In this document: positions 71 through 19,907 of the stretch, piece by piece | How positions within the stretch are numbered: the stretch's first letter is position 1 | How the letters are laid out: each line of letters begins with the position of its first letter | DNA from: a virus | Direction: 5' to 3' (one strand) | Virus record (IMG/VR): IMGVR_UViG_3300036766_000317 | Span: 1-64,000 of that record | Length of the DNA stretch: 64,000 bases | Translations under genes and position numbers: made by a program | The notes under the pieces: model-generated | Database searches by the model: none | Seen by the model: the letters and a program-made list of their open reading frames with translations, nothing else | Told to the model about the DNA's origin: nothing

Positions 71-1303
71 TTAATACTCGTCCAGATCGAAAGCGGTGAT
101 CTTGTAAGTCGTGTCCGGATTGTACAGAACGGGAAGACCCTTGTCCTGCACTCTCAGCCACACTCCCTCAGGGTCCCACTCATCCTTCGTGTCCGCGAAG
201 AACCCCCAACGCCGGCTGTTGCCGTATGGAGCTTCCATGAACTCTGCGACCTTGGAACCGCCCTGGGAATCTGCAAACATGAAGAAGACGTTATCCTGGA
301 TGAACTTCTTCCGCATAACGACTTTATCCTGACCCCCCACAAATGTTGCTGTGGGATAGGCGCCGACGGTGATGGTACCATTGACTTTATCAACAGCCGT
401 AATGACTTCATCCTCGTAGGTGTTGTACGCCTTCATATTGTAGAAACGGGCTTTCCCGCCAACCTCAAAATCAGATACGTCATCCAGATAGATGGTTGTA
501 CTAGTCGTAGTCGTAGTCGTAAGCCACGCCTGAACTTCGTACATTTCATCATAGAGCTGAATAGCACCGACACCGAGCAGATTGCCGATAACCCCAACGG
601 GATTGCTGAAGAGGTCTCCGTTGCCAAAAGCACTCTTCTCCAAGAGAGCCTGAATATTGGCATCGAACATGAGAACCTTCAGCATCTGGGAATTCATCAT
701 GCAATGATTCGGTTGAACCATAGCATCATCCGCCAACGTCTGTTTTGCATCGAAAATGTCCTCAACAGGATTTCTTGAGGCACCATCTTTCCAGTTACGA
801 TCATCGTCCAGGGTCACAAGGTGACTTGTGGGGATACCGTAAGAGACAGTGAATTTAATTCCACCCTGTTGGATGTACGTGAGTGCCCCTTCAATCAGCA
901 TCTGGGACACACACCACTCCCGCCGACGATCACATCTCCATCGGAGTTTCTGGGCCCCTTTCGCTAAGTGTCGTTCAGCCTTCATGTAGGTAGCAGGAGT
1001 ACCAGGCTCACGAAGGTTGTTGAGGAACTCCTCATCAAAGTACATCTTTTCTTTCCAGAACGCAGCTTTAGCCGAAGCAGCACCTGTTCCATCGATACCG
1101 ATAGCAGGAGCTACTGAACCAGGAGCTACGAACGGGGTCATACCGCCAGAGCCGTACTCGATTTCCCACTCAATTGTATCCGAATCATACTGACTTGACG
1201 GAAACAAATTAGTGAAGAAATTGCTCGGCGGTCTAACGAACTTGGAAATCAGCTTATTCAAGGTGATAAGCTGAAGTGCCGGAATACCCGTAGAACCCTT
1301 CAT
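71..1303 (-). CDS. major capsid protein (lambda gpE-like, HK97 fold)
   Basis: Forms the icosahedral shell. The 410-aa protein has the layout of the lambda E family: an N-terminal arm, an FVAPGSVAPAI-type segment near residue 58, and a central domain with RRREWCVSQMLIEGAL. The C-terminal core contains a VFFMFADSQGG stretch, and the end is acidic (TAFDLDEY). Residues about 255-330 (a threonine-rich strand, then YLDDVSDFEVG...ITVGAYPTATF) look like an inserted beta domain. The gene lies directly downstream of a D-like decoration protein and the protease/scaffold, the usual head-gene order. Identification rests on motif memory and synteny. Confidence 0.85.
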   Translation of the reverse strand: MKGSTGIPALQLITLNKLISKFVRPPSNFFTNLFPSSQYDSDTIEWEIEYGSGGMTPFVAPGSVAPAIGIDGTGAASAKAAFWKEKMYFDEEFLNNLREPGTPATYMKAERHLAKGAQKLRWRCDRRREWCVSQMLIEGALTYIQQGGIKFTVSYGIPTSHLVTLDDDRNWKDGASRNPVEDIFDAKQTLADDAMVQPNHCMMNSQMLKVLMFDANIQALLEKSAFGNGDLFSNPVGVIGNLLGVGAIQLYDEMYEVQAWLTTTTTTSTTIYLDDVSDFEVGGKARFYNMKAYNTYEDEVITAVDKVNGTITVGAYPTATFVGGQDKVVMRKKFIQDNVFFMFADSQGGSKVAEFMEAPYGNSRRWGFFADTKDEWDPEGVWLRVQDKGLPVLYNPDTTYKITAFDLDEY

Positions 1304-1316
1304 CTCGCCACCTCCC

Positions 1317-2027
1317 CTATTTCATTATGAAGAAACGTCCGTCAACAACGCCGAGATCCGTAATGGCTGCATCGGTAAGGTTGTACAGACTATTCTTGTA
1401 AAGGATACAATTTGATACCACCACCGAAGAGATGGCTCCTAACGCCTCTTCCCCGACACCGGTATCCACATCTTTATCGAGAATGTATGCAGCTTCATTG
1501 TTGCCACTGGCACCGGCCATCGTATAGACATACGCCTTCTTCGCCACTGTCACATTCGTAGCAGTAAGAGAAGCCACCGTGATGTTCGCGTATAAAGTAG
1601 ACGTGGTCCTGTCAATAGCAGAAATCACTCCGCCAGAAATGGGACCTTCGTCCGAATCATTGTCTGCCCACAGAAAATCCCCGACCTCATATTTGTAGGA
1701 ATCTTCCAAAGACACATAGACGTGGTCCGTAATACTATTCAAAACAATCGGTGAAATCCCAATGGATGAGACACCTCCTAGAACAACATCTCCGGAAAGG
1801 GGGACAAACGGCACGAGTTTGCCGTATCCGCCAGCCCCTCCAGTAGAGATATTGATAGCCATTACCGTACCTGCCTTCAGATACCCGTACCCCGCTGAGA
1901 CCGTCTTATCCAGAATCAAGGCAATATCCCTAACTGAATGGAACAAAGCCTTGATGCCGGGGCCCTCGGGGTACCGATTCATCTGAGGAACGCTACTGCG
2001 AATCCCCGTCAAACTCTGCATCGTCAT
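1317..2027 (-). CDS. capsid decoration / head-stabilising protein (gpD-like)
   Basis: A 236-aa protein between protease/scaffold and major capsid gene, where lambda-like phages keep gpD. The C-terminal third (AAYILDKDVDTG, then GAISSVVVSNCILYKNSL) resembles the head-decoration family, with a release-of-deuterium-like beta layout. It is longer than lambda gpD (about 110 aa); the extra middle part is glycine- and valine-rich and contains YEVGDFLWADND. It probably binds outer capsid three-fold sites after expansion. The GGAGG 5-6 nt before ATG supports the start. Confidence 0.75.
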   Translation of the reverse strand: MTMQSLTGIRSSVPQMNRYPEGPGIKALFHSVRDIALILDKTVSAGYGYLKAGTVMAINISTGGAGGYGKLVPFVPLSGDVVLGGVSSIGISPIVLNSITDHVYVSLEDSYKYEVGDFLWADNDSDEGPISGGVISAIDRTTSTLYANITVASLTATNVTVAKKAYVYTMAGASGNNEAAYILDKDVDTGVGEEALGAISSVVVSNCILYKNSLYNLTDAAITDLGVVDGRFFIMK

Positions 2028-2079: not shown

Positions 2080-2610
2080 TTAATGAGTTGCCGTCTTCTC
2101 TTGACCTACACTCTTCAGCATCCGATCGACCATCACATCGGAATCAACGGAACTATCAGCCGGTCGGCTATAGCCCATACCGAGAACAGATTGCTCTTCC
2201 CCTTCAACAGGCGCCCAATCCTTCAATTCGGTGTCGATAGCTGCGGAAAAAGCAGGGATATCCAACTTGTCGTCTTTGACGAACTTGCCGTAATCGATCT
2301 GCTTCTTCACTTTCGCATGAAGTCTTTCGGGAATGCTAGCCGCGGCGAGCTTTGCGGAGAAGATGCTGTCTGCGGACAGACGAAGTTCCGTCTCCCTGCG
2401 AGTAGCACTTTCCTTCTCCACCTTGAGAAGTCTTGCCGAAATGTCCTTATTGTCATTTGACAACTGGGTCTTATCGGCGGTAAGCTGGGTAATGGTTGTT
2501 TCCAACCCTGTCTTCACTACAGCAAAGGCAGCCTCAGCCTCCTGTTTACCGAGAGCAACCACTTCCTCATACAGAGAAAGGAACTCGGCTTTCAACTTTG
2601 CCAGATCCAT
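2080..2610 (-). CDS. internal scaffold protein, nested in-frame start
   Basis: An ATG at 2610, in frame inside the protease gene, is preceded by GAGGAGG with a 5-nt spacer. It would give a 176-aa product beginning MDLAKLKAEFLSLYEEV, highly charged with a helical heptad-like middle and a C-terminal tail rich in acidic and serine residues. Known precedent: lambda Nu3 starts inside gene C and is the free scaffold. That this start is used here is inferred from the strong ribosome binding site, which would be unnecessary for the fusion alone. Confidence 0.6.
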   Translation of the reverse strand: MDLAKLKAEFLSLYEEVVALGKQEAEAAFAVVKTGLETTITQLTADKTQLSNDNKDISARLLKVEKESATRRETELRLSADSIFSAKLAAASIPERLHAKVKKQIDYGKFVKDDKLDIPAFSAAIDTELKDWAPVEGEEQSVLGMGYSRPADSSVDSDVMVDRMLKSVGQEKTATH

Positions 2611-3390
2611 AATAACCTCCTCTTCCTGTTTTTGTTTTAACTGTGTTACTTCCAACTCCATTTCTTCGTCTTCGGCCATGGCTACCGATTTCGTGTTCGC
2701 GTCGGCCCCGAAGGTAACGACGGAACCCTCTTTTAATACTGACTCACGCCAGACTGTGCCCGGTCCTTTCATCTTGAAACCATTTACTTCTGTTTCCTCA
2801 TCCTCTGTAAGACGTTGAATCTTAGAAGGACGAGCATATATAGAAGCCTCATACGGGAAGCCTTGATCCGACAATTTGATAAATTCTGAAGCAAACGGGG
2901 TATCTACAAAAGTCATATCCCCAAGAACAATAGCATGTTTATCGTCCACAATGAAAGCACCAAAACCGATCTTCTCCTCAGTCATGTGGTCATTGAGAAT
3001 TGGTATTTCCTTCTTAGCCATCTTCAGTCCAGAAGTATCGATTGCCAAATCACCCCAATACCAGTGATTCTTGATGATCTTTCCTGAATAAGCAACCATT
3101 TTTAATGTTCGGGGTTTTCCTTCTGTGGCGGGGGCTATCTTGGAAAAACTATCGTGATCGGTAAAACTCAGAGCTGATCGGTTCAATTTCAATGTTTCCT
3201 TCTTCATGATTGATTCCTCCGAGAATTTACTATTGGCTATCTTGATCGCTTTAGGAGCACAAGTTTTATCCGTTCCACCTTTAGCAAGGCAATCTTTGTA
3301 AATACCGTTAGCAACGGCTACCCATTTTTTCTTCTGTTCCGGGGTGAGTCCTTTCCGATGTTTATCAACATCGGCCACCGTCCAAGGCAT
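2080..3390 (-). CDS. prohead protease fused to scaffold, with N-terminal ChaB-like domain
   Basis: 436 aa in three parts. Residues 1-61 form a ChaB-like helical domain (PWTVADVDKHRKGL...CAPKAIKIANSKF), common at the front of phage proteases. Residues about 62-245 resemble S78-type prohead proteases (IPILNDHMTEEKIGFG with its histidine, then FVDTPFASEFIKL and FPYEASIYA). Residues about 261-436 are charged and coiled-coil rich, as in scaffolds. Three in-frame starts each have their own Shine-Dalgarno: 3390 (AGGAGG, 5-nt spacing), 3207 (GGAGG, 8 nt, residue 62) and 2610 (GGAGG, 5 nt, residue 261). Protease, ChaB-protease and free scaffold could therefore all come from one ORF, like lambda C/Nu3. 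A promoter lies just upstream. Confidence 0.85.
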   Translation of the reverse strand: MPWTVADVDKHRKGLTPEQKKKWVAVANGIYKDCLAKGGTDKTCAPKAIKIANSKFSEESIMKKETLKLNRSALSFTDHDSFSKIAPATEGKPRTLKMVAYSGKIIKNHWYWGDLAIDTSGLKMAKKEIPILNDHMTEEKIGFGAFIVDDKHAIVLGDMTFVDTPFASEFIKLSDQGFPYEASIYARPSKIQRLTEDEETEVNGFKMKGPGTVWRESVLKEGSVVTFGADANTKSVAMAEDEEMELEVTQLKQKQEEEVIMDLAKLKAEFLSLYEEVVALGKQEAEAAFAVVKTGLETTITQLTADKTQLSNDNKDISARLLKVEKESATRRETELRLSADSIFSAKLAAASIPERLHAKVKKQIDYGKFVKDDKLDIPAFSAAIDTELKDWAPVEGEEQSVLGMGYSRPADSSVDSDVMVDRMLKSVGQEKTATH

Positions 3391-3433: not shown

Positions 3434-3462
3434 CTTATACAGATTTATTTAAAAAAGGTCAA
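3434..3462 (-). promoter_or_regulatory. sigma70-like promoter for protease/capsid genes
   Basis: On the minus strand: TTGACC, 17-bp spacer, TATAAG. The -35 overlaps the stop codon of the last cassette gene (3459), so the downstream head genes get their own transcription start independent of the long glycan cassette. Expression in excess of the cassette is the likely purpose. Confidence 0.6.
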
Positions 3463-5174
3463 GAAGAAAATTGTTGGTAAAAATCTGCATCCGATTTCAG
3501 TATGGATTTCAATAAGTTACCACCAATATCAACCTTATATTTCCTATTCTCTATATTATGATGGGTTGTCAATCCTTTTCTTCCAGGCATCCCTTTCATA
3601 CCTACAGTAATATATTTTTCACAGGTGGCCACCAACTTCCTGGCCTTTATTGGAATATTCGCATAAAAATATTCAGCGCCAGCATGTCTATCTGCCCTAC
3701 GCATAATTCCCAAAGGAATAGGAGGATAAAAAGCAAGTCCTACAGGAAGAACCTTACCACTAGCCACTTTTAAAGAAGCAGTCAACCTAACAAATCTTTC
3801 TTTCCTTTGTACTTCCAAAGAACTTTTCCATAGAAAAACATCAATAAGACCTTTGCCACAAAGTTCGTATTCTTTAGAAGCCGAGCGACATATTTCCTGA
3901 ACTGTAGGAATCACTACTTTCTTAAAAGCCGTCTGAGCAAAAGCCGGTTGTTTTGCCATTCTCTTTTCCATATACTTATGGGTTCCTGGATAGTAGAAAA
4001 TAAGATTACCAAATCCCACAAGATCCGCTTTATCCAATAAACCACTCATGTACTCAATATAAGTAGGATCATACCAATCATCATCTTCCATAATGATTAT
4101 CTTATCCCCTTTGACGGTTGCCAACGCTTTCTCAAGATTTAAACATAATGTATGTGTATAATCACTTATTGTCGGCTCCCGTCGAATATACTCAAATCCC
4201 TCTATATTCTTTAGAGGTTCTTTCCCGTCATCAACTACAATCCATTGTTTCGGTTTAACAGTCTGATTGTCCATCCATCTTCGCAATAGAACAAATGCTT
4301 CCGGACGATCCCCTGTGCAAGTAATAACGGTAATTCCTTCAGTTTTTGATTGTGCAGATATTCTGTCTAAGGGTACGGTAATTCCTTCAGTTTTTGATTG
4401 TGCAGATATTCTGTCTAAGGGTGGGGTGGCTCTATGCCCCTTCTTGTCAATTCCTATAAGTCTGGAACTCTCAAAACTCTGCCCAACATGCCCCATATAT
4501 ATACGAGCATTTTCTTCTCCTACCCATTTGACTAAAAACTCCAAACCTACATCTGTGTTGTAATACCGAGCATTTTCATTATGTCCTGTGCCTATTCCAT
4601 GTCTTCCCTTCAATCCTTTAAACGAACAATGGAGCTTTTTTGCATCTTCTGTATCAGTAATTAAATAACTACCTGAAATTACTGAAGCCCAAAGACGAGC
4701 ATCAATATAAGGATCTCCTGGTAGACAACTCTCAAAAAGAGGTAGCAACTTTCTGGTAAATCCAGTTTGACAGAAGCTGGCATGTCTATCATTTCCTATA
4801 CGTCTGTACTTCATTGCTGGTAAATAATAATACCTAGCAAATCTTTCTCCTACAAGATCGTAGTTGTTAAGTAAATTTGACATTGTTTCTACATAAGTTG
4901 GTCCATACCAATCGTCGTCTTCCACAATAAGAATTATATCCCCTTTGATGTATGTAAGGGATTTCCTCATGTTCAAAGTCAATGTATGCCCTTCATTCTC
5001 TTGTGGAACTCTTCGCACATACTCCAATCCATTTCTCAGATGAACCGGAAGAGGAACTTTACCGTCATCAATTACTAACCATTGATCTGGTTGCTTTGTC
5101 TGCTTGAATATCCATTTCCGTGTCAATTCAAAAGCTTCTGGACGATCCCCAGTGGGTGTAATTATTGTTATCAT
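3459..5174 (-). CDS. tandem two-domain glycosyltransferase (GT-A / GT2-like)
   Basis: 571 aa made of two homologous GT-A domains. Domain 1 starts ITIITPTGDRPEAFELTRKW and carries VEDDDWYGPTYVE near residue 86. Domain 2, after a linker near residue 283, starts VITCTGDRPEAFVLLRRW and carries MEDDDWYDPTYIE. The DDD clusters are the metal and sugar-nucleotide binding DXD motifs; both look intact. Each half ends with a GHNEN/THHNIEN plus Y-x-x-D-V/I-G segment. The linker contains a perfect 16-residue tandem duplication. Last gene of the cassette, 3 nt after the previous stop. Acceptor and sugar are unknown; no signal peptide, so cytoplasmic. Confidence 0.8.
   Translation of the reverse strand: MITIITPTGDRPEAFELTRKWIFKQTKQPDQWLVIDDGKVPLPVHLRNGLEYVRRVPQENEGHTLTLNMRKSLTYIKGDIILIVEDDDWYGPTYVETMSNLLNNYDLVGERFARYYYLPAMKYRRIGNDRHASFCQTGFTRKLLPLFESCLPGDPYIDARLWASVISGSYLITDTEDAKKLHCSFKGLKGRHGIGTGHNENARYYNTDVGLEFLVKWVGEENARIYMGHVGQSFESSRLIGIDKKGHRATPPLDRISAQSKTEGITVPLDRISAQSKTEGITVITCTGDRPEAFVLLRRWMDNQTVKPKQWIVVDDGKEPLKNIEGFEYIRREPTISDYTHTLCLNLEKALATVKGDKIIIMEDDDWYDPTYIEYMSGLLDKADLVGFGNLIFYYPGTHKYMEKRMAKQPAFAQTAFKKVVIPTVQEICRSASKEYELCGKGLIDVFLWKSSLEVQRKERFVRLTASLKVASGKVLPVGLAFYPPIPLGIMRRADRHAGAEYFYANIPIKARKLVATCEKYITVGMKGMPGRKGLTTHHNIENRKYKVDIGGNLLKSILKSDADFYQQFSS
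4327..4422 (-). repeat. perfect 48-bp tandem duplication in glycosyltransferase linker
   Basis: Two identical adjacent 48-bp copies (4327-4374 and 4375-4422) encode PLDRISAQSKTEGITV twice. The last residues of the unit (EGITV) are the first beta strand of GT domain 2, so the duplication lengthens the inter-domain linker. Perfect identity implies a very recent slippage or recombination event. Confidence 0.95.
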
Positions 5175-5177
5175 ATT

Positions 5178-5882
5178 TTATCTTTCCCAAACGCCTTCTA
5201 TTTCAGTTTGGCCTTTCCTTTTGCGAATAACCCTTGTACCAGCTACATCATGTTTTATAAATTCTCTAGGAAAACCTTTCCACGTCCAACCCTGTCCTGA
5301 AGAGTGTCCTAATCCACTAAACTCTTTCAGCACTTTATCGGATAAGCCCCTTTTGAATATATCATACATAGTTAAAACACAAGGGGCACCATGATGTATA
5401 TAAGGATGATACTTCTTATAATTACTAATCTTTACCAATTCAAAGAAAGGATGAAGATAAGGCATCCATCCTTCCTTTAAATGATGAGCATGTGCTCCAT
5501 AGTTAAAACCATCAAACCCTGTCTTTTCGATATACCCTACTCCAAATGTGTCTTCCTCAAACATGGAAAACATTTCTTTTACTGGAGACTTTAGCATTTC
5601 TATGTCTGAATCAAAAAACAGAACATAAGGAGTTTCTGTGTAATATACCCCTGTACACATTCCTCTGCCATGCCCGATATTATATCCTACTTGAACTATC
5701 TGATTATTTCCTCTCAATGTTTCTATGTATTTAAAACAAGGATTCGTCACATCCGAACCATCTATAATAATTATCCTCATATCAGGATGAAAAGCCCGAA
5801 CAGACTCGTAAGCTCTTTTGACAAAATCGTTCGTGTTATAGGTAACCATCACCCCAGTAACATTTTTATTAAGGTTGTCCAT
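5178..5882 (-). CDS. GT-A glycosyltransferase (GT2-like)
   Basis: 234 aa from the chosen ATG at 5882, the methionine of MDNLNKNVTGVMVTYN. An upstream in-frame ATG at 5951 would overlap the previous gene by 83 nt and adds a non-conserved stretch. It reads VTGVMVTYNTNDFVKRAYESV, then IIIIDGSD, GHGRGMCTGVYY and LFFDSDIEML (the DXD-like DSD), the typical order of GT2 nucleotide-sugar transferases. The C-terminal half has YIHHGAPCVLTMYDIF and GWTWKGFPREFIKHD. Fits as one of several transferases assembling a glycan. Acceptor unknown. Confidence 0.7.
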   Translation of the reverse strand: MDNLNKNVTGVMVTYNTNDFVKRAYESVRAFHPDMRIIIIDGSDVTNPCFKYIETLRGNNQIVQVGYNIGHGRGMCTGVYYTETPYVLFFDSDIEMLKSPVKEMFSMFEEDTFGVGYIEKTGFDGFNYGAHAHHLKEGWMPYLHPFFELVKISNYKKYHPYIHHGAPCVLTMYDIFKRGLSDKVLKEFSGLGHSSGQGWTWKGFPREFIKHDVAGTRVIRKRKGQTEIEGVWER

Positions 5883-7017
5883 GACTAATCCGAGTTGTTT
5901 TAGAATAAAGTTTGTCTTGCCAATATATTTTAGGTTTTTCCATAAAAACACTATTTATAAAAAGGAAATCCCCTACCTGGGAATCTGAAAATCTTTCAAT
6001 ATATTTTTGCCATAAATCATTTCTGACAACTACATTAGAAGTTCCAACATGGTTTTGATGAAGTCTTTCTCTCTTCCACACCACTGATGTAGGATACAAT
6101 TCCTCATTTATCAACATACGAACAAAAATCAGTCCAGGTGAATGTTCGGCAACAATCCCTTTCATATCTCCTACAAATTCATCCGATGTAAATATATCGT
6201 CATCATCCAACATAAAAACATATTCACCCCTTACTCTGTCTTTGTTACTGTAGAATAGACGGTTAGCCTTTGCAGAACCTATCCCTACCATATCTTTTAT
6301 AATCACATGATCAAAGTCTTGATCTTTTTGCATTGACACACTGGCACAGCAGTTTTTAAACATCTCCTCTCGTTTGTAATAATTTCTTGTCACAATAGAT
6401 ATGAACGGACGAAGCTCTGCAGGCAGGACATATTCATATGGCGGAGGTATCGTTTTGCTCTTATCATGATTTTCATTCTCGGCTCTTGCCTCTGAATGAA
6501 GGTGATATACTTTTATTGTCTTAGAAGGATTAGTAACCATATATCCTGTTTGCTTCAATTCATAAGCAATACGATTATCACAACCCAATCTTCCTGATTC
6601 AAATGGGGCGTTTACTTTCACAACTCCTTTGAATATCCAAACATCCTGACTATCCTGCCGATTAAAGAAAATGCTGTTTCCATCTACAACATCCCACCGA
6701 GTAAGAGCATAGCAGTCGGCTTCTTTAAGGAACTTCAGATAGTCCAAAGTTTTATCAAAATAAATGTCGGAATTAGCCATAATACTTATATCTGGCTTTG
6801 ATTCATTCATAACCTTAAAGAAGGAATTGTAGGTAGCTCTAGAACCTCTTATTCCTATAATCTTCTTATGAACAGGAAAATCTTTATCATCATCACAAAG
6901 AAGATATATTTTATCAATTATAGGATTTTCAAGATTGATACGAAGGCAGGTCTCATTCTCTGTATTTCTCTCCACAGCTTTTGCCTTGTACCAATTTGTG
7001 TAAAGATATACCCTCAT
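5869..7017 (-). CDS. two-domain glycosyltransferase-like protein
   Basis: 382 aa. The N-terminal half (YLYTNWYKAKAVERN, DKIYLLCDDD, MANSDIYFDKTLDYL) resembles a GT-A-like fold with an NSD motif in place of DXD. The C-terminal half starts ISIVTRNYYKREEMFKN and has an intact GEYVFMLDDDDIFTSDEF motif, as in GT2 enzymes. The start overlaps the stop of the upstream radical-SAM gene by 4 nt (ATGA). Probably bifunctional or with a regulatory N-terminal domain. Confidence 0.7.
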   Translation of the reverse strand: MRVYLYTNWYKAKAVERNTENETCLRINLENPIIDKIYLLCDDDKDFPVHKKIIGIRGSRATYNSFFKVMNESKPDISIMANSDIYFDKTLDYLKFLKEADCYALTRWDVVDGNSIFFNRQDSQDVWIFKGVVKVNAPFESGRLGCDNRIAYELKQTGYMVTNPSKTIKVYHLHSEARAENENHDKSKTIPPPYEYVLPAELRPFISIVTRNYYKREEMFKNCCASVSMQKDQDFDHVIIKDMVGIGSAKANRLFYSNKDRVRGEYVFMLDDDDIFTSDEFVGDMKGIVAEHSPGLIFVRMLINEELYPTSVVWKRERLHQNHVGTSNVVVRNDLWQKYIERFSDSQVGDFLFINSVFMEKPKIYWQDKLYSKTTRISHGQP

Positions 7018-9224
7018 AAATAAAACCTCAGTGTAGTATAAAGATCGGCTTTCTTATTTCTTGCTACATTCGTTGGATGTATTAAAGGAAAAACCATTTG
7101 CTCCCTTTTTACATTTGCCATAATATTATTTCCTGAACAGTGAGTGGAGTCTTCCCCAAATCCTATATTAGATACAAGATTGACCGAGGGAAGAACCGTT
7201 AGCATTTTTTTCCTCCATAAAAAATGACTGAGCTGATAATCCCATGCCCCAATATCTCCTGCACACATTCTATCCAATGTAGAAGTCCAAAAAGGTATTT
7301 CTCTTGGATCATCTAATAACTCCCCAATCCAATCTGTATTTCGGACAGAAGGCCAATCTTTCAATGTTATATCAAATTGTTTCCACACTCGTCTCCAACT
7401 AGCCCATCCCCATCCGTGCAAATATTTAGAATAGTAATAACTATCCGAAGTTTTATTCTTACCAAATTGAAAATTATCACCACTGATTGTCCCTATTCTA
7501 TTATCATTCCTATACTTCTCTAAAAGTTCTGCACAGTACGGGAAAAAAGAAGGGTCGGGAATATCATCATCCTCTAAAATAATCCCCTCCCCTACATGAC
7601 TAAAAAACCAAGAGATTGCCGTATAGCCTCCCCACTTTCCTCCCAAGTTTGCATTTTGATATAACAACTGAAGATCACATTCCCAATCTATTTGGGAAAT
7701 AACATCCCGTACAGAAACACACTTAGCAACTTCTCCAACAATTCCCTTCTGCGGTCCATCCGCAGCAACAAACAGATGTCTTGGTTTTATCCTTTTAATT
7801 TCATTAAATACCAACTGAGTGAGTTCTGGTCTTCTGTAGACCATAAAAAGAATAGGCGTTTGAAACAAAGCCTGCTCTGTTGTTGGGGCCGATGTCGGTA
7901 ATTTGATTGCAGGCACATTCCCAAAAAGGATATTATAAAGAAAGTGCCGAGTACGATCAAAACTGATCATTTCTCCGCTTTGTCCTACCTGTTTAGCCCA
8001 TTGTCCTAATTGAGCATTAGAAACTTCTGGGGGAGGTAGCACCCCATCACTTTCACACCAAAACTTATCTATATTTAGATTTTTCTTTCGCATATCATTA
8101 TAGATATCAGTTCCCGGTAGAATATAAAGAACAGACGGGGCTGGAGAATCAGTTAATGGTATAGTATTCAAGAAAGCAACTGTCTCCTTTATCGTTTCAT
8201 TACTTTCTCCAGGATTTCCCACCATTGTAAAAGCACCAACAGAAATAATTCCTATGTGCTTTCGGCACAGTTCATAAGCCTTCTTGATTTGCTCTTGAGT
8301 GATCTTCTTATTGATCCGTTCTAGCATCTGTTTTGAACCAGACTCAATCCCCCAACAAATATGTCTACATCCAGATTCAACCATCCTATCAATCATCTCT
8401 TCAGAAACCGGATGTACACGACAAACACATTCCCACTGAATATCTAACTTCCTTCGCAATATTTCATCGCATATATCCAATACTCTATTTATACTGACAT
8501 TAAAAGTATCGTCGTGGAACATGATCTTCTTAACTCGGTACTTCTGCATCATAATTTCTATTTCATCCACAACTCTTCTGGGTGAATTAGTACGGACCTT
8601 CTGTCCCCAAAAACTGCCTGTAGAGCAAAAATAACAATGCGCTGGACATCCTCTAGAAGTTATAACAAACCCCAATCCACTCTCCCGCATAATATCCCCA
8701 GCATAAGAAAAATCAGGAATAAGCAAATCATCCAAAATACCAATAACTGATCGTGGTTTTGTAGTAACTATCTTAGATCCTTCCAAATAAACAAGCCCAT
8801 CCACATTGATCGGAGACTCCCCTTTATCAATTGAATTACATAACTCTCTCAGGGTGTTTTCCCCTTCCCCAATAACAACATAATCTGCCTTATAATTTAA
8901 AATAGCTTGTTCTGGAAAGAAGGACACATGCACTCCTCCTAAGATAATCTTTATATCCGGATAATTACTTTTTATCCATTGACTTATCTTTCTTACATTG
9001 CCCCGATTAAAAGAAGAACAAGTTAGACCGACAATCTCTGGTTTAAAATCAGAGATAATATCTGGCAATTGCTGAAGGGCATGTTCCATCAATTGATAAT
9101 GTACTGCTTTAGCCATTCGATCCTGACGTATAGCAGCCAACAAATACCCGATACCCAAAGGGAATATAGGACCGTAGCCTATTTCTAATCCGGGAAGATA
9201 TATGAGTAATACCTTGGACTTCAT
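7014..9224 (-). CDS. B12-binding radical SAM enzyme fused to a glycosyltransferase domain
   Basis: 736 aa. Residues 1-150: a Rossmann-like B12-binding domain (FPLGIGYLLAAI, VGLTCSSFNRGNVRKIS, ILGGVHVSFFPEQ). It has no clear DXHXXG, so base-off cobalamin binding is uncertain. Residues about 180-400: radical SAM core with SRGCPAHCYFCSTGSFWG (CX3CX2C), then FHDDTFN and WGIESGSKQML. Residues about 455-736: a GT domain (PILFMVYRRPELTQLVFNEI, EGIILEDDDIPDPSFFPYC, GWGWASWRRVWKQFD) like transferases of the GNT-I/sugar-transferase group. B12 radical SAM enzymes often methylate or rearrange unreactive carbons, so it may modify a sugar or acceptor and then transfer it. Both junctions are ATGA overlaps. 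Confidence 0.8.
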   Translation of the reverse strand: MKSKVLLIYLPGLEIGYGPIFPLGIGYLLAAIRQDRMAKAVHYQLMEHALQQLPDIISDFKPEIVGLTCSSFNRGNVRKISQWIKSNYPDIKIILGGVHVSFFPEQAILNYKADYVVIGEGENTLRELCNSIDKGESPINVDGLVYLEGSKIVTTKPRSVIGILDDLLIPDFSYAGDIMRESGLGFVITSRGCPAHCYFCSTGSFWGQKVRTNSPRRVVDEIEIMMQKYRVKKIMFHDDTFNVSINRVLDICDEILRRKLDIQWECVCRVHPVSEEMIDRMVESGCRHICWGIESGSKQMLERINKKITQEQIKKAYELCRKHIGIISVGAFTMVGNPGESNETIKETVAFLNTIPLTDSPAPSVLYILPGTDIYNDMRKKNLNIDKFWCESDGVLPPPEVSNAQLGQWAKQVGQSGEMISFDRTRHFLYNILFGNVPAIKLPTSAPTTEQALFQTPILFMVYRRPELTQLVFNEIKRIKPRHLFVAADGPQKGIVGEVAKCVSVRDVISQIDWECDLQLLYQNANLGGKWGGYTAISWFFSHVGEGIILEDDDIPDPSFFPYCAELLEKYRNDNRIGTISGDNFQFGKNKTSDSYYYSKYLHGWGWASWRRVWKQFDITLKDWPSVRNTDWIGELLDDPREIPFWTSTLDRMCAGDIGAWDYQLSHFLWRKKMLTVLPSVNLVSNIGFGEDSTHCSGNNIMANVKREQMVFPLIHPTNVARNKKADLYTTLRFYL

Positions 9225-9916
9225 AAAGACGCCCCCACTAAAAATATATCATTCGGAAAAGCCCCCTTAACCGAAGATAATATAGTTATTCCAACTGTAC
9301 GAAACAATAATTTTACGGACTTTTCCATGAAAATAAAAACGTGCTCATCCGCTTGAAAATGAGGAAAGCCTAAACCTTCATTTCTGTAACAAGGCGTTTG
9401 TATCATTACATATACTCCAAGAGATTTCATTTTCTCCAACGCTTTAATAGGATCCGGAAAATGCTCTAACACATCAAAACCACACACAATATCAAAGGGC
9501 CAATTTATTTGTATATTAGGGAACTCCCCACATAGCATAGCCACACCAAAGGTCTTTCTTGCAAAGGAGCAGGTTTCTTCCGATATTTCTACTCCTACAC
9601 ATCTGGTAAACCCATTATCTTTACAGTGTCGTAGAAATCCCCCATGAGCCGATCCTACTTCTAGTATAGAAGTCAACTTTGGTAGAGTTTTCAACTGATT
9701 CCACCAGAATGGTATTCTATCCCCAAAATCATCTTTTGCCCGTTGCTCAATCGGAGGAAAACCAAACTTCTTTGTCTGCCTATCATGCCAATATGTATCA
9801 AAGGTGTAAAAGTCCTTCTCTATACCTTTTTTTGATACGAATGTATCACAAGAGGCACACTGTAGATAGTCTGGATGAAACCCTCGTAAATTCTCTTCCC
9901 CGCACCAACATTTCAT
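9221..9916 (-). CDS. class I SAM methyltransferase with N-terminal cysteine cluster
   Basis: 231 aa. Cysteines at 3, 5, 20 and 23 (MKCWCGEEN...LQCASCD) form a likely zinc site. The SAM-binding motif ILEVGSAHGGFLRHC lies near residue 86, with an acidic motif VGVEISEETC and the post-motif VCGFDVLEHFPDP, as in Methyltransf_23-type sugar or small-molecule methyltransferases. Four-nt overlaps with both neighbours. Likely methylates a sugar or an intermediate of the same pathway. Confidence 0.75.
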   Translation of the reverse strand: MKCWCGEENLRGFHPDYLQCASCDTFVSKKGIEKDFYTFDTYWHDRQTKKFGFPPIEQRAKDDFGDRIPFWWNQLKTLPKLTSILEVGSAHGGFLRHCKDNGFTRCVGVEISEETCSFARKTFGVAMLCGEFPNIQINWPFDIVCGFDVLEHFPDPIKALEKMKSLGVYVMIQTPCYRNEGLGFPHFQADEHVFIFMEKSVKLLFRTVGITILSSVKGAFPNDIFLVGASL

Positions 9917-10428
9917 TTGAATCCCTCCACATAGATGGTCTCATGATCTCTCGCCTTCATATCTAGCCCTTCTCTAAAAGGCCTAAGTTTCACTTCTTTA
10001 AAACCAATGGAAGCTATGATCAAAGGTAAATTTTCCTCATCAAATAAAAACTGATGGTGGCCATCTAGATAAGCAAAATAATTGATGAAATCTATCTTTG
10101 AATAGAAATGGTAAGCAGGAAGATACAAATCCGTATCCGGTATCTTGAACAGCTCTGGTTTCAGATATGCTTCTATATAGATTCTAGCATTGGGCACAGC
10201 CGCCTCAAACAAACCACCAGATTTCAATACTCGACGGCACTCATGAAGCAGCTTTATCATATTGGTATAAGGAAAATGCTCTAGTAAATGGGAAGAATAA
10301 ATCCTATCAACAGAGCCCTCTGCAAAAGGGAGAAGATTATTTAAATCACGACAAATATCACTTCTTGGATCTTTGTCTATAGTAATCCACCCTTCCCTCC
10401 TTTCAAAAGCTCCTAATTCTACTTTCAT
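9913..10428 (-). CDS. class I SAM methyltransferase (Methyltransf_11-like)
   Basis: 171 aa from the ATG at 10428, chosen because GGAGG precedes it by 5 nt and because it gives the 4-nt ATGA overlap seen along the cassette. Short motif I (KVELGAFERREGWITIDKDP), then VDRIYSSHLLEHFPYTN and CRRVLKSGGLFEAAVPN, the standard order of this family. The glycine-rich loop is abbreviated, as in MetW/WbdD-like proteins of polysaccharide clusters. Confidence 0.7.
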   Translation of the reverse strand: MKVELGAFERREGWITIDKDPRSDICRDLNNLLPFAEGSVDRIYSSHLLEHFPYTNMIKLLHECRRVLKSGGLFEAAVPNARIYIEAYLKPELFKIPDTDLYLPAYHFYSKIDFINYFAYLDGHHQFLFDEENLPLIIASIGFKEVKLRPFREGLDMKARDHETIYVEGFK

Positions 10429-11096
10429 ACAAACCTCCAATTATTAATCAGAATTGTTCTATCCTCTTGAGCAGGAACCTTTGCTGTTGCGTAATAGAAC
10501 TTCTTAGTAGAATGCAGATCTGGAATGACATCCACAAAATTACACAGGCTGCTATCTATACAGTGTATTTCTTCGGCTTTCAAAAGAACGGTATACCAGT
10601 CAAAGATATTAAAGTCATCTATCGGCCCGAATAAAACTTTTGAAAGCGGTGTACCTATAAAATTTTGAGAGTCCCACGTATTCTCATGAACTACTGCATA
10701 TCTATCTCCGTATCTTGCTATGATCTTGTCATATAAAGCAAGTTCCTTCTCATTATTCCTATTCCACACTAAGTTCCAACGATAGCTTATCGGAACTTGC
10801 GCCAAATGATATTTCATAGATACAAAACTCTGCCAAGTGAGTCTAGACGCCATCCACAATTTATGTAAAACAGTATCCGTATTCAAACCAAAACTAAGAT
10901 CAATAATCCTTTCATATTCAGAGTCTTCCACATCTACGGGACGTACATAATCTATATTTCGGAACAAAGGGTGGTACTCTTTTGGGCACAACCACTCCAC
11001 TTTGTAATTGTACGGTTTTTTCGTGTACCAAAAAGCTATAGGCAAACAGATCAATATATCTCCATGTCTGCCTGGTTGATTTATAAGTAATTTCAT
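10425..11096 (-). CDS. GT-B-like glycosyltransferase (heptosyltransferase/GT9-like)
   Basis: 223 aa. N-terminal GRHGDILICLPIAFWY matches the G-x-x-GD-x-L start of the GT9/heptosyltransferase family. The C-terminal segment AEEIHCIDSSLCNFVDVI resembles the nucleotide-sugar site of GT-B enzymes. It is shorter than GT9 enzymes (about 330-350 aa), so it may be a trimmed or single-lobe version. Overlaps both neighbours by 4 nt. Confidence 0.55.
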   Translation of the reverse strand: MKLLINQPGRHGDILICLPIAFWYTKKPYNYKVEWLCPKEYHPLFRNIDYVRPVDVEDSEYERIIDLSFGLNTDTVLHKLWMASRLTWQSFVSMKYHLAQVPISYRWNLVWNRNNEKELALYDKIIARYGDRYAVVHENTWDSQNFIGTPLSKVLFGPIDDFNIFDWYTVLLKAEEIHCIDSSLCNFVDVIPDLHSTKKFYYATAKVPAQEDRTILINNWRFV

Positions 11097-11725
11097 CCTA
11101 TTCTCCTATGCACCATAAATAAATGAGAATTTGGACATGTCTTAGTATAAGAATCCTTTATTCCTTTAACTTCTGTAGATGAATAAGTACAAACCCAACC
11201 ACACCTACGAAATAAATTAAGCCACCAACTAGAATCCTCACAAATGACATGAGTGATGTCCTTATTATTTGATGGAGCCACATATTTACCGCAAGAACCT
11301 AAAGGGACTATCGTGAACAGTTGTTCCACATTGAATACTTCCAATAAATAAATAAGTTCTTTTTCCGATATATGCTCTAATACATCTTTACAAACGCCAT
11401 ACTTAAAAGGAGACTTGCTTTCTTTCCAATCTGCTAATAGAGTCCTTGTCTTTACCAGATATGGTTTTGCTTCTTCATCTGCATGAGAAAGAGCGTATTC
11501 ACTGACATCCGACCCCCAAGCATCCCTACGTAACATACGCAAAGCCCGAACAAGGTACGCTTTTGCACAACCAAAATCTATAATTGTTTCATTTGGTTTT
11601 ATATGCAGAAAATCAATGATGGACATCGCTAATGGAAACGTGAGTTCGGGAATCCATCTGTAATTCTGATAATTACTCAAGCCCGTTTCTACACCAGATT
11701 CATAATAATCCCGGTCGTAAATCAT
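11093..11725 (-). CDS. class I SAM methyltransferase
   Basis: 210 aa. The SAM motif TIIDFGCAKAYLVRAL lies near residue 48, followed by AWGSDVSEYAL (motif II acidic residue) and GVCKDVLEHISEKEL (post-I/IV). Third methyltransferase of the cassette and distinct in sequence from the other two. Overlaps neighbours by 4 nt on both sides, so strongly translationally coupled. Confidence 0.7.
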   Translation of the reverse strand: MIYDRDYYESGVETGLSNYQNYRWIPELTFPLAMSIIDFLHIKPNETIIDFGCAKAYLVRALRMLRRDAWGSDVSEYALSHADEEAKPYLVKTRTLLADWKESKSPFKYGVCKDVLEHISEKELIYLLEVFNVEQLFTIVPLGSCGKYVAPSNNKDITHVICEDSSWWLNLFRRCGWVCTYSSTEVKGIKDSYTKTCPNSHLFMVHRRIG

Positions 11726-12651
11726 AAGAAATTTTCCATTTCTGGATTGATAAGTGATTCTACTAAACTATTCTGTGTACCAAAAACACAGTTGGTACAG
11801 TTCTTACTATCATATGGTTTTGCCTTTTTCATGCAAGATTCGATGAAATCTTCCGTAGTCATCCATCTGAATTTCTTATGAAAAGATCGATCTGCCGATT
11901 CATTAAGAACTATAGAACTGCACCTATATACATACCCATCATGAAGAATAAATGGTTTAAAGTACCCCCACCAACATCTTTCAGGCCTTGAAAAAACCTT
12001 CTCTTGATAAAAGAAAGGAGGACCATAATTAGCCACCATTCGGGAAAGACGAATATTAACGTATTTCAACTCGGTTTCGGAGACCTGACAATTGGGAACA
12101 ATCCTTATATACTTTGGATGATATAAATCCGAATAATTCTTGAGTTTATTCCAAGTGCTATTGGTTGTTTTCTCATTGACAACGTAGCTAAATCCGAGAA
12201 CTCCTTTATAATCTGTGGGTATTTCAATATCAGAAACATAATCCAATGAATTTAAAGAAATCCTGATCCAGTCTAAGAAGTCAACATAACTACCAACTTT
12301 ACTAACGAGATCAATTCCATTAGTAATAAACCCTTGTTTAAAACCAAGAGTATTGGCTCGACGGATCACATTTTTAATGAAAGGATATTGTGTAGGGTCA
12401 CCACCACCAGTCCATTCCACTGATTTCGATCCTGATCTTGCCATTTCACATAAAAAAATATGGATACGGGTATTATCCAAATCTTCATGTTTCCGCCTAT
12501 TTACATTGGAACAAAAGACGCACTTGAGATTGCACCTACTTGTAGGTGCAATCTGTAAAGAGATTGGTTTAATCTTTCCAGTATCTTGGAAGAACTTTAG
12601 ATAATCAAGGTGACGTAGGATCTTCTTCCCTGTTGATGTATACACAGACAT
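11722..12651 (-). CDS. radical SAM enzyme with C-terminal cysteine (SPASM-like) region
   Basis: 309 aa. Start ATG at 12651 has GGAGG 8 nt upstream; an upstream TTG at 12666 lies within that site. The core motif APTSRCNLKCVFCSNVNRR (CX3CX2C) is near residue 37, then WTGGGDPTQYPF (the GGE-like motif, here GGD) and FITNGIDLV. C-terminal cysteines (ERCWWGYFKP, YRCSSIV, SKNCTNCVFG) suggest an auxiliary Fe-S cluster. First gene of the cassette after the portal gene (20-nt gap). Substrate unknown. Confidence 0.75.
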   Translation of the reverse strand: MSVYTSTGKKILRHLDYLKFFQDTGKIKPISLQIAPTSRCNLKCVFCSNVNRRKHEDLDNTRIHIFLCEMARSGSKSVEWTGGGDPTQYPFIKNVIRRANTLGFKQGFITNGIDLVSKVGSYVDFLDWIRISLNSLDYVSDIEIPTDYKGVLGFSYVVNEKTTNSTWNKLKNYSDLYHPKYIRIVPNCQVSETELKYVNIRLSRMVANYGPPFFYQEKVFSRPERCWWGYFKPFILHDGYVYRCSSIVLNESADRSFHKKFRWMTTEDFIESCMKKAKPYDSKNCTNCVFGTQNSLVESLINPEMENFL

Positions 12652-12671
12652 TTTGAATTCCTCCAATTGAA

Positions 12672-14321
12672 CTACTTTACTGGTTTTGGTATCTTTTTCT
12701 TCTTCACTACTGGAACAACTTCTCCTGGTTTCGGTTTAATCGGTTGACCATCAGCCCCTACTTTCTGTTTGGGTTCCGCTTGCTGTCCAGCGGCATCAAC
12801 AGGTGGCTGTAATTCAGGGAATCTATCCTCTTCAGTAGCCTGTTCCAATCTCAGACGACGATAGTTACCAAAGCCGACCTTCCTAGCAATCTCCTTATTC
12901 GGGATACCAAGAACGTCATAAACCGATCCATGCTTCACTCCTAAGTAAGCGCGAGCACGGGTCTCCGCATCAGTGACCTCCGAAGTCGGAAAGGTTATGT
13001 CAATCAGTTGTTCTGGTTTTACATCTATATCCTTAAACACAGGCTTCTTTCCTTTAAAATCAACAGCCGTTCTTACAGAGAATTTTTCTGGGAAATCTGA
13101 TACTTTACTCATAAGGAAGAAAACAGCCCGATAAAAATCATACCGTAGAAACCGTTCATAATATGCAATTTCATCCATGATACGATCAGACATGGGCCCA
13201 CGAGACGCTTTTACCGAAGCAAACGTGCCTTTCGATTGTCCTGTAGACACGTCTTCCGGTTCGTTAAGCCCCCCGGTGACCATATGCAGAATGTCCGTAT
13301 CAGCATCACTAATAGAAGGGAGTTTTGGATTCTGTGCCGTTATAGTCATACCGGGAGGCAGAACGAGTGTACTACCAGGTGTCTTCTTGGCCATAATACC
13401 TGTCTTACGTCTTTCCTCGTCAGTCAGACTAAGCCAAGTACGGAATGCTTTCGGGTCTTCGATAGCAACAACCCATAAATAGGCTCCTGCTGATTTCTTG
13501 TGGTCTATCTCATATTTCTTAAGGTTTTCATAATGATTTAGCCATTCTACAACTGTCCGAAGATAAGAGATATTCCTCCTAGTCACAAAAGACCGATCCC
13601 AAGAAACAATAAACCTTTGAAATCCGCCCATATCATTGAATGTATTCTTACTGTTTCTGGAATCTTTGGTCTGCTCCTCCTTATACCCTGCACATTTCTT
13701 AGCCACTTTGTGCAAGTCGGGATAGTAAGCCATATATATGGAAGGGACAAGGGTGATATTACTCGCAGACGAATACTTGCTAGAATCAGTCATGGTTACA
13801 AAATAGAATAACGGGAAGGTTGTTTTTGTAGGATGATAGATAATACCATCTTCCCCACCCCCTGTTATAGACGAAGGATCAAGAAAATCAACTTCAACAA
13901 ACCCATCAGGATGGACTGTGAGCATCAGGAAAAGTTCTCCTTCGATAAAAGCTCTTCCAACAAACTTCGTCCAGTTTGAGTACAACCGATTTCTCGGATC
14001 TCGTTCAATCAACTCGATTTTCTCTTGAATTTCAAAGATTTCCGAAGAAATCTCAAAACCAAGACCCGTTAAACGACCAACTTGTCCTCGAATTGCTGTA
14101 CCAACAAAGGGGCTTTTATTGAACTTGTCCCAACATACCTTTTGCAAATTTGCTCGGTCTTCTAAAGGATTAACTCCTCCTACTGCAAAACCATCAGCAT
14201 CTTTTGTTTCGTCTCCGGATATGTCTTCTTGCCACGGCATGGTCATCCTTATAGCCATAAGCTCGTCATCATCCAATTTACTTAAAGCAGACGTTATTTT
14301 GTCAATTTTCTCGATTTTCAT
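12672..14321 (-). CDS. portal protein
   Basis: 549 aa, the size of phage portals. It has the recognisable segments NKSPFVGTAIRGQVGRLTG (residues about 70-90), YLWVVAIEDP, and a GLNEPEDVSTGQSKGTFASV segment typical of the portal crown/stem region, then ERFLRYDFYRAVFFL. The proline/lysine-rich C-terminus (KPKPGEVVPVVKKKKIPKPVK) is an extension. Forms the dodecameric DNA channel at the capsid vertex. It sits upstream of the cassette and protease, in the usual order if the cassette is removed. Confidence 0.8.
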   Translation of the reverse strand: MKIEKIDKITSALSKLDDDELMAIRMTMPWQEDISGDETKDADGFAVGGVNPLEDRANLQKVCWDKFNKSPFVGTAIRGQVGRLTGLGFEISSEIFEIQEKIELIERDPRNRLYSNWTKFVGRAFIEGELFLMLTVHPDGFVEVDFLDPSSITGGGEDGIIYHPTKTTFPLFYFVTMTDSSKYSSASNITLVPSIYMAYYPDLHKVAKKCAGYKEEQTKDSRNSKNTFNDMGGFQRFIVSWDRSFVTRRNISYLRTVVEWLNHYENLKKYEIDHKKSAGAYLWVVAIEDPKAFRTWLSLTDEERRKTGIMAKKTPGSTLVLPPGMTITAQNPKLPSISDADTDILHMVTGGLNEPEDVSTGQSKGTFASVKASRGPMSDRIMDEIAYYERFLRYDFYRAVFFLMSKVSDFPEKFSVRTAVDFKGKKPVFKDIDVKPEQLIDITFPTSEVTDAETRARAYLGVKHGSVYDVLGIPNKEIARKVGFGNYRRLRLEQATEEDRFPELQPPVDAAGQQAEPKQKVGADGQPIKPKPGEVVPVVKKKKIPKPVK

Positions 14322-14343: not shown

Positions 14344-15549
14344 TTACTTCAATGTTAAAAAGTCTAATCTGGACAAAAGATTCTTTACAAATGCCCCAAA
14401 AGATCCCACTACCGAATGTTCCGCCGTTCCCTCATCCCACACAGCTTTTGAAATAGTTGACATACCAATTAAACCTGTTACGTCAACTTCAGTCGTTCCC
14501 GTACTATTATTTACACATATTCCCACACCCTTGACCAATATTGTTCCATCTTCTACCGATGAATCTACTATCAACCTACCTGCCGCCAAGTAAACACTGA
14601 TGTTTGCTGCATGATCCAAATCCATTAAAGTCAGACCACCACTATATTGATTGAAACTCACACTGGTAGCCGTTCCTACTCGAATTATTGGAGTCGCGGC
14701 ACCAGGGAACCCGTCCACACAATTAATAAACATGGTTGACCCCACTGCATGAAGAGAAATATCCCCTTTTAAAACCGAATCTTTAATTTCTCCACTGAGA
14801 TTTGTTAGGCCCAGGAGTTCATATCCAAGTTGGCAGTCAATAACCGTAAGGTTACAATCTTCCCCCATCCCGCCGGAAAGAGTGGCCTTTTCAAGTTGAG
14901 TTCCTTCACACATACAGGCGTCGAAGGCAAGATGGGTCAAGGATTTACTTTCTCCTATAAATATCAATCCTCCCATCGCCTCTCCCGTAATGAATGCGTA
15001 ATCTCCTATAATAAAAAACTTCTTAAAACCTCTGGACAAGGCTATTTCTTTTGCCTGGGCAAAATTACTCGACGGTGTTTCCGCCGTCCCTATCGGATAT
15101 GCTGTTCCAGGAATCCCATTTACCACATCTATCGTTACACCGCCATTGAAAGAAGAATACTGAATTGCTGACATTTCCTGTAAGGTGGTTGATGAAGATG
15201 CCGTTATAGTAGCCATAACATTATCTGAATATGCCAACGGATACATTGTAGCTCCATTTATATCAACAGCAACCAAATTTCCACCGGACACCTTGCATAT
15301 TGTCGGAGTAAGTCTTGCCTCGAACATGACTTTGGCATTTTCTAATTTAGCAGTGATTCCTACCATAACAGAACCACCTAAATCTTCTTTTCCGGAAGCA
15401 GATAGTAATCTGGGATAACTCATATTTACCTGAGTAGCTTCCCATATACGAATTTGAGTTACCAGCGACTGAATGTCAATTTCTGGGCCATCAGTCGCTG
15501 GTATTGTAATGATTCTTGGACTAACTATTGGGTTGACCTGGATCGACAT
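14344..15549 (-). CDS. virion structural protein, probable fibre or beta-helix protein
   Basis: 401 aa of beta-strand-rich, glycine/serine-rich sequence without cysteine clusters or enzyme motifs. Repeating short strands (TLSGGMGEDCNLTVIDCQLG, SGEIKDSVLKGDISLHAVGS, FINCVDGF) look like right-handed beta-helix rungs. The C-terminal AVWDEGTAEHSVVGSFGAFV is a segment I associate with phage fibre-like proteins in this position. GGGGGAG precedes the ATG. Role as host-facing fibre or decoration is inferred. Confidence 0.6.
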   Translation of the reverse strand: MSIQVNPIVSPRIITIPATDGPEIDIQSLVTQIRIWEATQVNMSYPRLLSASGKEDLGGSVMVGITAKLENAKVMFEARLTPTICKVSGGNLVAVDINGATMYPLAYSDNVMATITASSSTTLQEMSAIQYSSFNGGVTIDVVNGIPGTAYPIGTAETPSSNFAQAKEIALSRGFKKFFIIGDYAFITGEAMGGLIFIGESKSLTHLAFDACMCEGTQLEKATLSGGMGEDCNLTVIDCQLGYELLGLTNLSGEIKDSVLKGDISLHAVGSTMFINCVDGFPGAATPIIRVGTATSVSFNQYSGGLTLMDLDHAANISVYLAAGRLIVDSSVEDGTILVKGVGICVNNSTGTTEVDVTGLIGMSTISKAVWDEGTAEHSVVGSFGAFVKNLLSRLDFLTLK

Positions 15550-15709
15550 TACTCCCCCTGTTATACTCTTCCCATTCTCTTATGTAAGATTGAAGCTCAT
15601 CCATCCGAGTTTCCTCTTTGGTTATGCCTTGCCGAAAAGCCAAAATATTAGTCTGACACTGCATCACAGCCGTCCGAAGAGGTCCTAACTCATATTGCGG
15701 TTTTTTCAT
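15521..15709 (-). CDS. small helical protein between structural genes
   Basis: 62 aa starting at the second of two adjacent ATGs, 4 nt after AGGAGG. Charged and helical (TKEETRMDELQSYIREWEEY). It overlaps the next gene by 29 nt. Position suggests a structural cofactor or trimerisation/chaperone peptide for the neighbouring fibre-like proteins, but no family is recognised. Confidence 0.6.
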   Translation of the reverse strand: MKKPQYELGPLRTAVMQCQTNILAFRQGITKEETRMDELQSYIREWEEYNRGSNVDPGQPNS

Positions 15710-15718
15710 CATTCCTCC

Positions 15719-17692: not shown

Positions 17693-17705
17693 TTTTTGTT
17701 CCTCC

Positions 17706-19436: not shown

Positions 19437-19907
19437 TTACGAATACTCCAACGTAAGTCGATCAACCCATTTATTTACAAACTCTGGATTTCCTCCAGCC
19501 CAAGTTTTTACCGTTACCCCAGTAAAATCTGCTTTGTAGATCCTCCACACAGTTTCACCTTCCTCTGAATCAAATTCAGCTTCCCCCACATAGATTATAT
19601 TATCTTCGGATGTGGAATCAAGCAACCTCAAATAAACACCTTCTCCAGTACCTGTTCCATCTTCTCCAGGGGGTCCTTGAGGACCTGTCTCAATAGATTC
19701 AATAACAGTCACATCTTCCTCAGTAGAAATGACTTCTACCGTTGGATCCGACTCTATTACAATAACTTCAACAGAGGTATCGACATCTATCGCTATCTGT
19801 TCTGGTACATTCTCCGTAGAAATAATAACATTTACTTCCGCCTCCGATTCCACAATGATTGTGGTATCCTTTTCTACATAAAGGATGTTAGCATCTATAT
19901 CAACCAT
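19437..19907 (-). CDS. fibre-like protein with short collagen-type repeat
   Basis: 156 aa. The N-terminal 75 residues are unusually rich in valine, isoleucine, glutamate and threonine in alternating order (IIVESEAEVNVIIST), suggesting a triple beta-spiral or fibre shaft. A collagen-like GPQGPPGEDGTGTGEG stretch follows (Gly-X-Y), then a compact C-terminal domain (VWRIYKADFTGVTVKTWAG). Trimeric fibre component likely. Overlaps the upstream gene by 8 nt. Confidence 0.6.
   Translation of the reverse strand: MVDIDANILYVEKDTTIIVESEAEVNVIISTENVPEQIAIDVDTSVEVIVIESDPTVEVISTEEDVTVIESIETGPQGPPGEDGTGTGEGVYLRLLDSTSEDNIIYVGEAEFDSEEGETVWRIYKADFTGVTVKTWAGGNPEFVNKWVDRLTLEYS

Follow-up and report, generated by a model that had tools for sequence, protein, structure and literature searches.

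Why would a phage carry a block of glycosyltransferase (GT), methyltransferase and radical S-adenosylmethionine (SAM) genes between its portal gene and its prohead protease gene? The question is raised by a stretch of 64,000 nucleotides (positions 1 to 64,000, hereafter the window) of the 91,824-base viral record IMGVR_UViG_3300036766_000317 from IMG/VR. We propose that this nine-gene cassette is a late-expressed virion glycosylation locus situated at an exchange hotspot, a reading to which we give a probability of about 0.5.

A variable cassette between portal and protease

The interval between portal and protease is filled by nine open reading frames (ORFs) on the minus strand (3459-12666), so the block that had been proposed in a sequence-only reading of this DNA is indeed present. 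Profile searches recognised in it two family 2 glycosyltransferase (GT2) proteins and a weaker third, three methyltransferases, a radical SAM enzyme, a B12 radical SAM enzyme, and one protein without a proven fold (Table 1). The three methyltransferases and two radical SAM enzymes of the earlier reading were recovered by their Pfam domains. Four GT-type genes had been claimed, and three are of the GT2 type, one of them weakly (E 0.005); the fourth, at 10425-11096, matched no family in Pfam, PHROG or NCBIfam. Internal ATG codons at 12651, 10428 and 5882 were used as starts, the first two with a clear Shine-Dalgarno (SD) sequence. With these starts, six of the seven successive junctions are exact 4-nt overlaps and the seventh is a 14-nt overlap, in agreement with the overlapping or near-overlapping junctions reported before, and this supports translational coupling across the cassette, from which the fixed ratio of products proposed earlier might follow. 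The cassette genes are also AT-richer than their neighbours, as had been suspected, with a GC content of 0.352-0.388 (mean 0.370) versus 0.422 in the other 28 late genes (Mann-Whitney p = 1e-4); some early genes match the cassette in this respect. Promoter-like matches were not commoner than in shuffled sequences.

Segments resembling transmembrane (TM) helices were found in none of the nine cassette proteins and in 3 of 82 insert proteins from 16 relatives. By Pfam and the TM-segment scan, the window cassette lacks a lipid-carrier initiating transferase, a flippase, a polymerase and a membrane GT, as well as a Gtr-type seroconversion module (membrane GT, flippase, bactoprenol GT). Among the matches listed for the rest of the genome there was no sugar-nucleotide synthesis family.

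In order to compare this junction in other phages, we used portal and major capsid protein (MCP) queries, which fetched 119 loci from viral contigs (labels such as L002 denote fetched loci). Portal and protease are separated by at most 110 bp in 43 of the 77 loci that hold both genes, some of these loci coming from the same contig, and the two genes can therefore rightly be called normally adjacent. The window's clade and a few relatives outside it carry 4-7 kb of glycan-type genes in this gap, and the content differs sharply from one phage to another. L002, whose portal is 90% identical, has rSAM1, MT1 and the unassigned gene in common with the window; L004, at 91% portal identity, carries what is essentially another set, including DegT-like, MT2-like (34%), hexapeptide and other genes; the insert of L016 includes WbqC-like and GNAT genes. 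The extra genes in the inserts of relatives (DegT, hexapeptide/PglD, WbqC, RMNT/CmcI, FkbM, GNAT) encode classic glycan enzymes. GT2b and a multi-GT2 protein are the common anchors beside the protease, with their order reversed in L118 and L084, and where capsid and protease are 86-97% identical these two anchors are 66-74% identical. Close relatives thus differ in gene content at a single site, a trait of the pelagimyophage type, and the synteny search that had been suggested returned the same junction filled by differing glycan cassettes. Judged from its sequences, the junction looks like an exchangeable, serotype-like locus.

Two further observations were made on these inserts. A methyltransferase and a P-loop-like protein are encoded by two overlapping genes in L004 (4717-5785), L005 (6980-8036) and L013 (13012-14092), and by a single fused gene in L006 (5826-6926). 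Short DegT-like proteins of about 212 aa (L004, L008, L013, L016 and others) cover only part of the aminotransferase profile and contain a candidate PLP lysine segment.

Related cassettes occur at other sites. A search with an rSAM1 alignment led to many further loci, and among the 57 loci that have at least 4 kb downstream, MT1 is no more than 6 kb away from rSAM1 in 37. In more distant family members rSAM1 and MT1 lie after the capsid gene, in the stretch that separates head connector from tail tube, and are preceded by a protein of about 700 aa and a GT2 of about 230 aa; the N-terminal half of the former matches GT group 1 profiles and its C-terminal half appears GT9-like by eye. In L145 and L150, which are still more distant, the pair lies between portal and protease, and a third site of related cassettes is the late region near the tail and lysis genes. 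Thus related cassettes are found at three places, each within the late or structural region of this virus family. Outside the family, the pair is present in two cultured marine phages, Pelagibacter phage HTVC008M (127141-128812; 28% and 36% identity) and Synechococcus phage SynMITS9220M01, outside the head genes in both and in glycan clusters that have been taken to be LPS-related; in the latter phage it adjoins a GT and ADP-heptose genes.

The virus itself does not appear to be a T4-like myophage: among 50,697 phage records there was no match to the portal, the MCP reached at most 27% identity, and no match was T4-like. No cultured relative that might point to a host was found. Two contigs from metagenome-assembled genomes carry a portal at 53-54% identity and are probably binned viruses, and a scan of 369 genomes from a single phylum, which had no positive control, gave no rSAM1 at E 1e-30. 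The two ends of the record (window position 1 and 91824) join in the gene order of the relatives, the capsid gene and then the connector genes, and the record therefore looks like a permuted, near-complete genome.

Enzymes of the cassette

The first gene, rSAM1, encodes the motif CNLKCVFC and four conserved C-terminal cysteines (C231, C249, C290, C293), all invariant in our alignment A2, which suggests one auxiliary, twitch-like cluster. Its relatives are present in many viral contigs, and peptide-modifying families (PqqE and others) are among its weak matches in the PDB and NCBIfam, far below curated cut-offs. Viral scans with MT1 as a single query, and likewise with the unassigned protein, found only L002. 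The unassigned protein aligned weakly, in the expected register, with the GT9-like half of GT4-GT9 proteins (hhalign E 0.09), and its AF2 model (pLDDT 27) was unusable.

The B12-binding enzyme has both a B12-binding domain and the CxxxCxxC radical SAM motif (CPAHCYFC), and its relatives in the PDB are AprD4, OxsB and TokK. A GT domain had also been assigned to this protein. The B12-binding and radical SAM domains are borne out; for the C-terminal half the sole profile match is a weak one to GNT-I (E 0.022), and the motif ILEDDDIPDP, with its EDDD, would make the domain GT-A-like. A viral scan with this domain gave no homologue and its AF2 model (pLDDT 33) was unusable. The C-terminal half of the two-domain GT-like protein is a stand-alone gene (176-185 aa) in L010-L012 and L017. 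GT2b is 57-66% identical in 7 relatives (alignment A3), and the counterpart of the tandem GT2 ORF varies in length from 571 aa in the window to 811 aa in L006 and 1066 aa in L013.

Table 1. Positions of the cassette genes and neighbouring head genes in the window
Feature	Position	Strand	Evidence or remark
Portal protein, 5' boundary of hotspot	12672-14321	-	PF05136, phrog_21
rSAM1, radical SAM enzyme, first cassette gene	11722-12651	-	PF04055 E 1e-9; ATG 12651 with SD
MT1, SAM methyltransferase, recurrent rSAM1 partner	11093-11725	-	phrog_27380 E 1e-31
Unassigned protein; possible GT-B (GT9-like) half, unproven	10425-11096	-	no family match
MT2, methyltransferase, Methyltransf_11 type	9913-10428	-	PF08241 E 4e-10; ATG 10428 with SD gives 4-nt overlap
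MT3, Methyltransf_23 with N-terminal Cys motif	9221-9916	-	PF13489 E 4e-16; weak Pse_Me-ase match
B12-binding radical SAM enzyme with C-terminal domain of ~300 aa	7014-9224	-	PF02310 7e-18, PF04055 3e-22
Two-domain GT-like protein, NSD and DDDD motifs	5869-7017	-	PF00535 0.005, below cut-off
GT2b, glycosyltransferase family 2, DSD motif, conserved 3' anchor	5178-5882 (ORF to 5951)	-	PF00535 1.5e-12
Tandem GT2 protein (GT2x2), two EDDDW domains, 571 aa	3459-5174	-	PF00535 8e-14, two stretches
Exact 48-bp tandem duplication, PLDRISAQSKTEGITV x2, linker between the two GT2 domains	4327-4422	-	TRF, 100% identity
Prohead protease, 3' boundary	2080-3390	-	phrog_3244 5e-19
236-aa protein, after protease and before capsid gene	1317-2027	-	
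MCP, possible acceptor	71-1303	-	phrog_29 3e-36

Candidate acceptors on the virion

The MCP of the window contains an internal TTTTTTSTT run at aa 262-270, but this run is an expanded form of a linker that all relatives possess and is weak evidence for an acceptor. In one clade (L046, L052, L112 and others) the MCP ends in runs such as TSTTTTSSSSTTTTTA and the tail tube ends in poly-Thr. Passages in PMC12619734 (citing Freeman 2023) and PMC11256854 report that the C-termini of mycobacteriophage capsid and tail-tube proteins are glycosylated, which makes the poly-Ser/Thr tails plausible acceptors. Tails on both proteins are present in all 7 members of the clade in which both genes were seen versus 0 of 31 others. 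The expectation that such tails would go with the cassette was not borne out, as they appear in one clade that lacks it at both head sites (portal-protease and connector/tube), and since this clade represents one event the association has no statistical weight. Two genomes of the tailed clade have a GT, radical SAM and methyltransferase cassette in the late region near the tail and lysis genes, and in L255 a mucin-like protein of 385 aa (10873-12030, minus strand; 51% Ser/Thr) is encoded directly upstream of the GT/radical SAM cassette.

A separate feature of the window is an insertion of several genes, about 6 kb long (14344-20328, minus strand), between terminase and portal, which abut in the closest relatives L003 and L004. 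It encodes three large Ser/Thr-rich proteins (401, 657 and 576 aa; 16-20% S/T), one of which has a weak Ig-like match. No homologue of the insertion was present in the fetched loci, and a viral scan with the 576-aa protein fib3 (17706-19436) found none.

Probable target and possible significance of the cassette

From these observations we infer a cassette whose cytoplasmic GTs would build a short glycan on at least one virion protein during capsid and tail production. Nucleotide sugars supplied by the host would be transferred sequentially onto a cytoplasmic acceptor, most likely a co-produced virion protein, and the radical SAM enzymes and methyltransferases could tailor the sugars of the glycan by O- or C-methylation and radical rearrangement. 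Exchange of this serotype-like module between related phages would probably help the virion surface to evade recognition, or serve to adjust adsorption. Several findings point this way: all nine proteins are soluble by the TM scan, PF00535 scores above its cut-off in two genes, so that GTs are phage-encoded as in virion glycosylation of the mycobacteriophage type, and related cassettes are placed among late genes at three sites. In one lineage, moreover, a related cassette is accompanied by a mucin-like protein and by capsid and tube proteins that end in poly-Ser/Thr. Other findings weigh against virion glycosylation. The MCP and tail tube of the window have no C-terminal Ser/Thr tails of the mycobacteriophage type, and no acceptor was identified for the window cassette. 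The tailed lineage has a single origin on the tree, and its radical SAM enzyme is only 26% identical to rSAM1. Since the GTs of the lipopolysaccharide (LPS) core are likewise soluble, the lack of TM segments is still compatible with a surface target. Finally, in cultured T4-like phages the rSAM1/MT1 pair lies outside the head genes, in one case with ADP-heptose genes that have been read as LPS-related. The earlier proposal of an acquired, late co-expressed cassette that decorates the virion thus gains comparative support from the three late sites and the tailed lineage, and loses some from the untailed window proteins and the LPS-like settings of the pair.

It is these LPS-like settings, together with the published reading of the pelagimyophage cluster, that make modification of the host surface the main rival. 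Here the late enzymes would alter LPS, capsule or another surface glycan, and would thereby block superinfection or keep progeny from sticking to debris. Mixtures of GT, radical SAM and methyltransferase genes are typical of O-antigen clusters, and the GT and radical SAM cassettes in the hypervariable region of pelagimyophages are interpreted in this way in the part of PMC7029224 drawn on here. Nevertheless we regard a surface target as less likely than a virion target, given that the membrane and lipid-carrier components listed above are missing from the window cassette, that all three sites of cassettes in the family fall within head or tail regions, that late timing leaves little time for surface remodelling, and that the lineage with the third placement has Ser/Thr-tailed virion proteins.

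The remaining explanations are much less probable. If the radical SAM enzymes and methyltransferases modified residues of virion proteins directly, the GT-like proteins being secondary, the weak matches of rSAM1 to peptide-modifying families and its twitch-like cluster would be accounted for; this is improbable, since those matches fall so far below cut-off, no other kind of domain is as frequent in the cassette as the GT domain, and the inserts of relatives also contain aminotransferase and acetyltransferase genes of kinds that typically act on sugars. GTs that hypermodify phage DNA are known (Pyle 2024, as cited in a passage of PMC12619734), and candidate 7-deazaguanine genes of this genome (45962-53386, plus strand: QueD, QueE, FolE, a radical SAM enzyme, QueC, an FkbM methyltransferase and a possible DpdA-like protein) could supply a base for GTs and methyltransferases to decorate. 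This pathway is separate, early and unlinked to the cassette, which makes decoration of DNA very unlikely; in addition, the cassette sits among late genes and its sugar-tailoring genes vary between near-identical phages. It is equally hard to credit that the genes are horizontally acquired cargo tolerated at a permissive junction: they are AT-rich, variable and missing from many relatives, but neither the 4-nt coupling nor the catalytic motifs have decayed, and the rSAM1/MT1 pair turns up again at several sites across large distances.

Virion glycosylation can be compared with several known systems, each as described in the portions of the literature cited. The mycobacteriophages (Che8 and others; Freeman 2023 via PMC11256854 and PMC12619734) likewise encode GTs, and they are reported to carry glycans on the capsid and tube C-termini, where the related lineage of the window's family has its poly-Ser/Thr tails. 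However, the GTs of Maravista are near the 3' end of the genome and not in a head operon, the MCP and tube of the window are untailed, and those portions describe no radical SAM or methyltransferase block. Chlorovirus PBCV-1 (A064R and others, PMC7019647) serves as a working analogy for the mechanism, with viral GTs that have no ER signal, multi-domain proteins, and methylated sugars on the capsid protein. It is likened to the window by description only, is a eukaryotic virus, and has no radical SAM enzymes mentioned in the cited text. The pelagimyophage host-recognition cluster (PMC7029224) resembles the present locus in its GT and radical SAM cassettes within a variable region with structural genes, and HTVC008M has the rSAM1/MT1 pair; these are T4-like phages, however, with larger regions at other sites and O-antigen modification as the published reading. 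In the heptose/LPS-like cluster of SynMITS9220M01 (PMC7378029) the neighbouring rSAM1 and MT1 adjoin a GT, but this phage has its own ADP-heptose synthesis genes and the cluster is not among head genes.

Both virion glycosylation by phages and variable regions with GT and radical SAM genes were already known, and the new element here is their exchangeable, serotype-like organisation in an uncultured family. As a broader and more tentative proposal, for which we would give less than even odds, the whole family might make a radical SAM-tailored virion glycan, with close relatives acquiring different coats when the cassette between the invariant head genes is replaced, much as bacterial O-antigen loci are exchanged. 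The lineage with poly-Thr-tailed capsid and tube offers a directly testable prediction of virion glycosylation. If the proposal is true, wild tailed phages would have interchangeable, serotype-like glycan coats made by phage enzymes during assembly, with B12 and twitch-type radical SAM steps that are not described for virion glycans in the cited parts of the literature. This would bear on adsorption and on the recognition of phages by host and environment, and also on the reason why viral metagenomes commonly contain GT-rich 'auxiliary' genes, for which LPS modification is a frequent reading.

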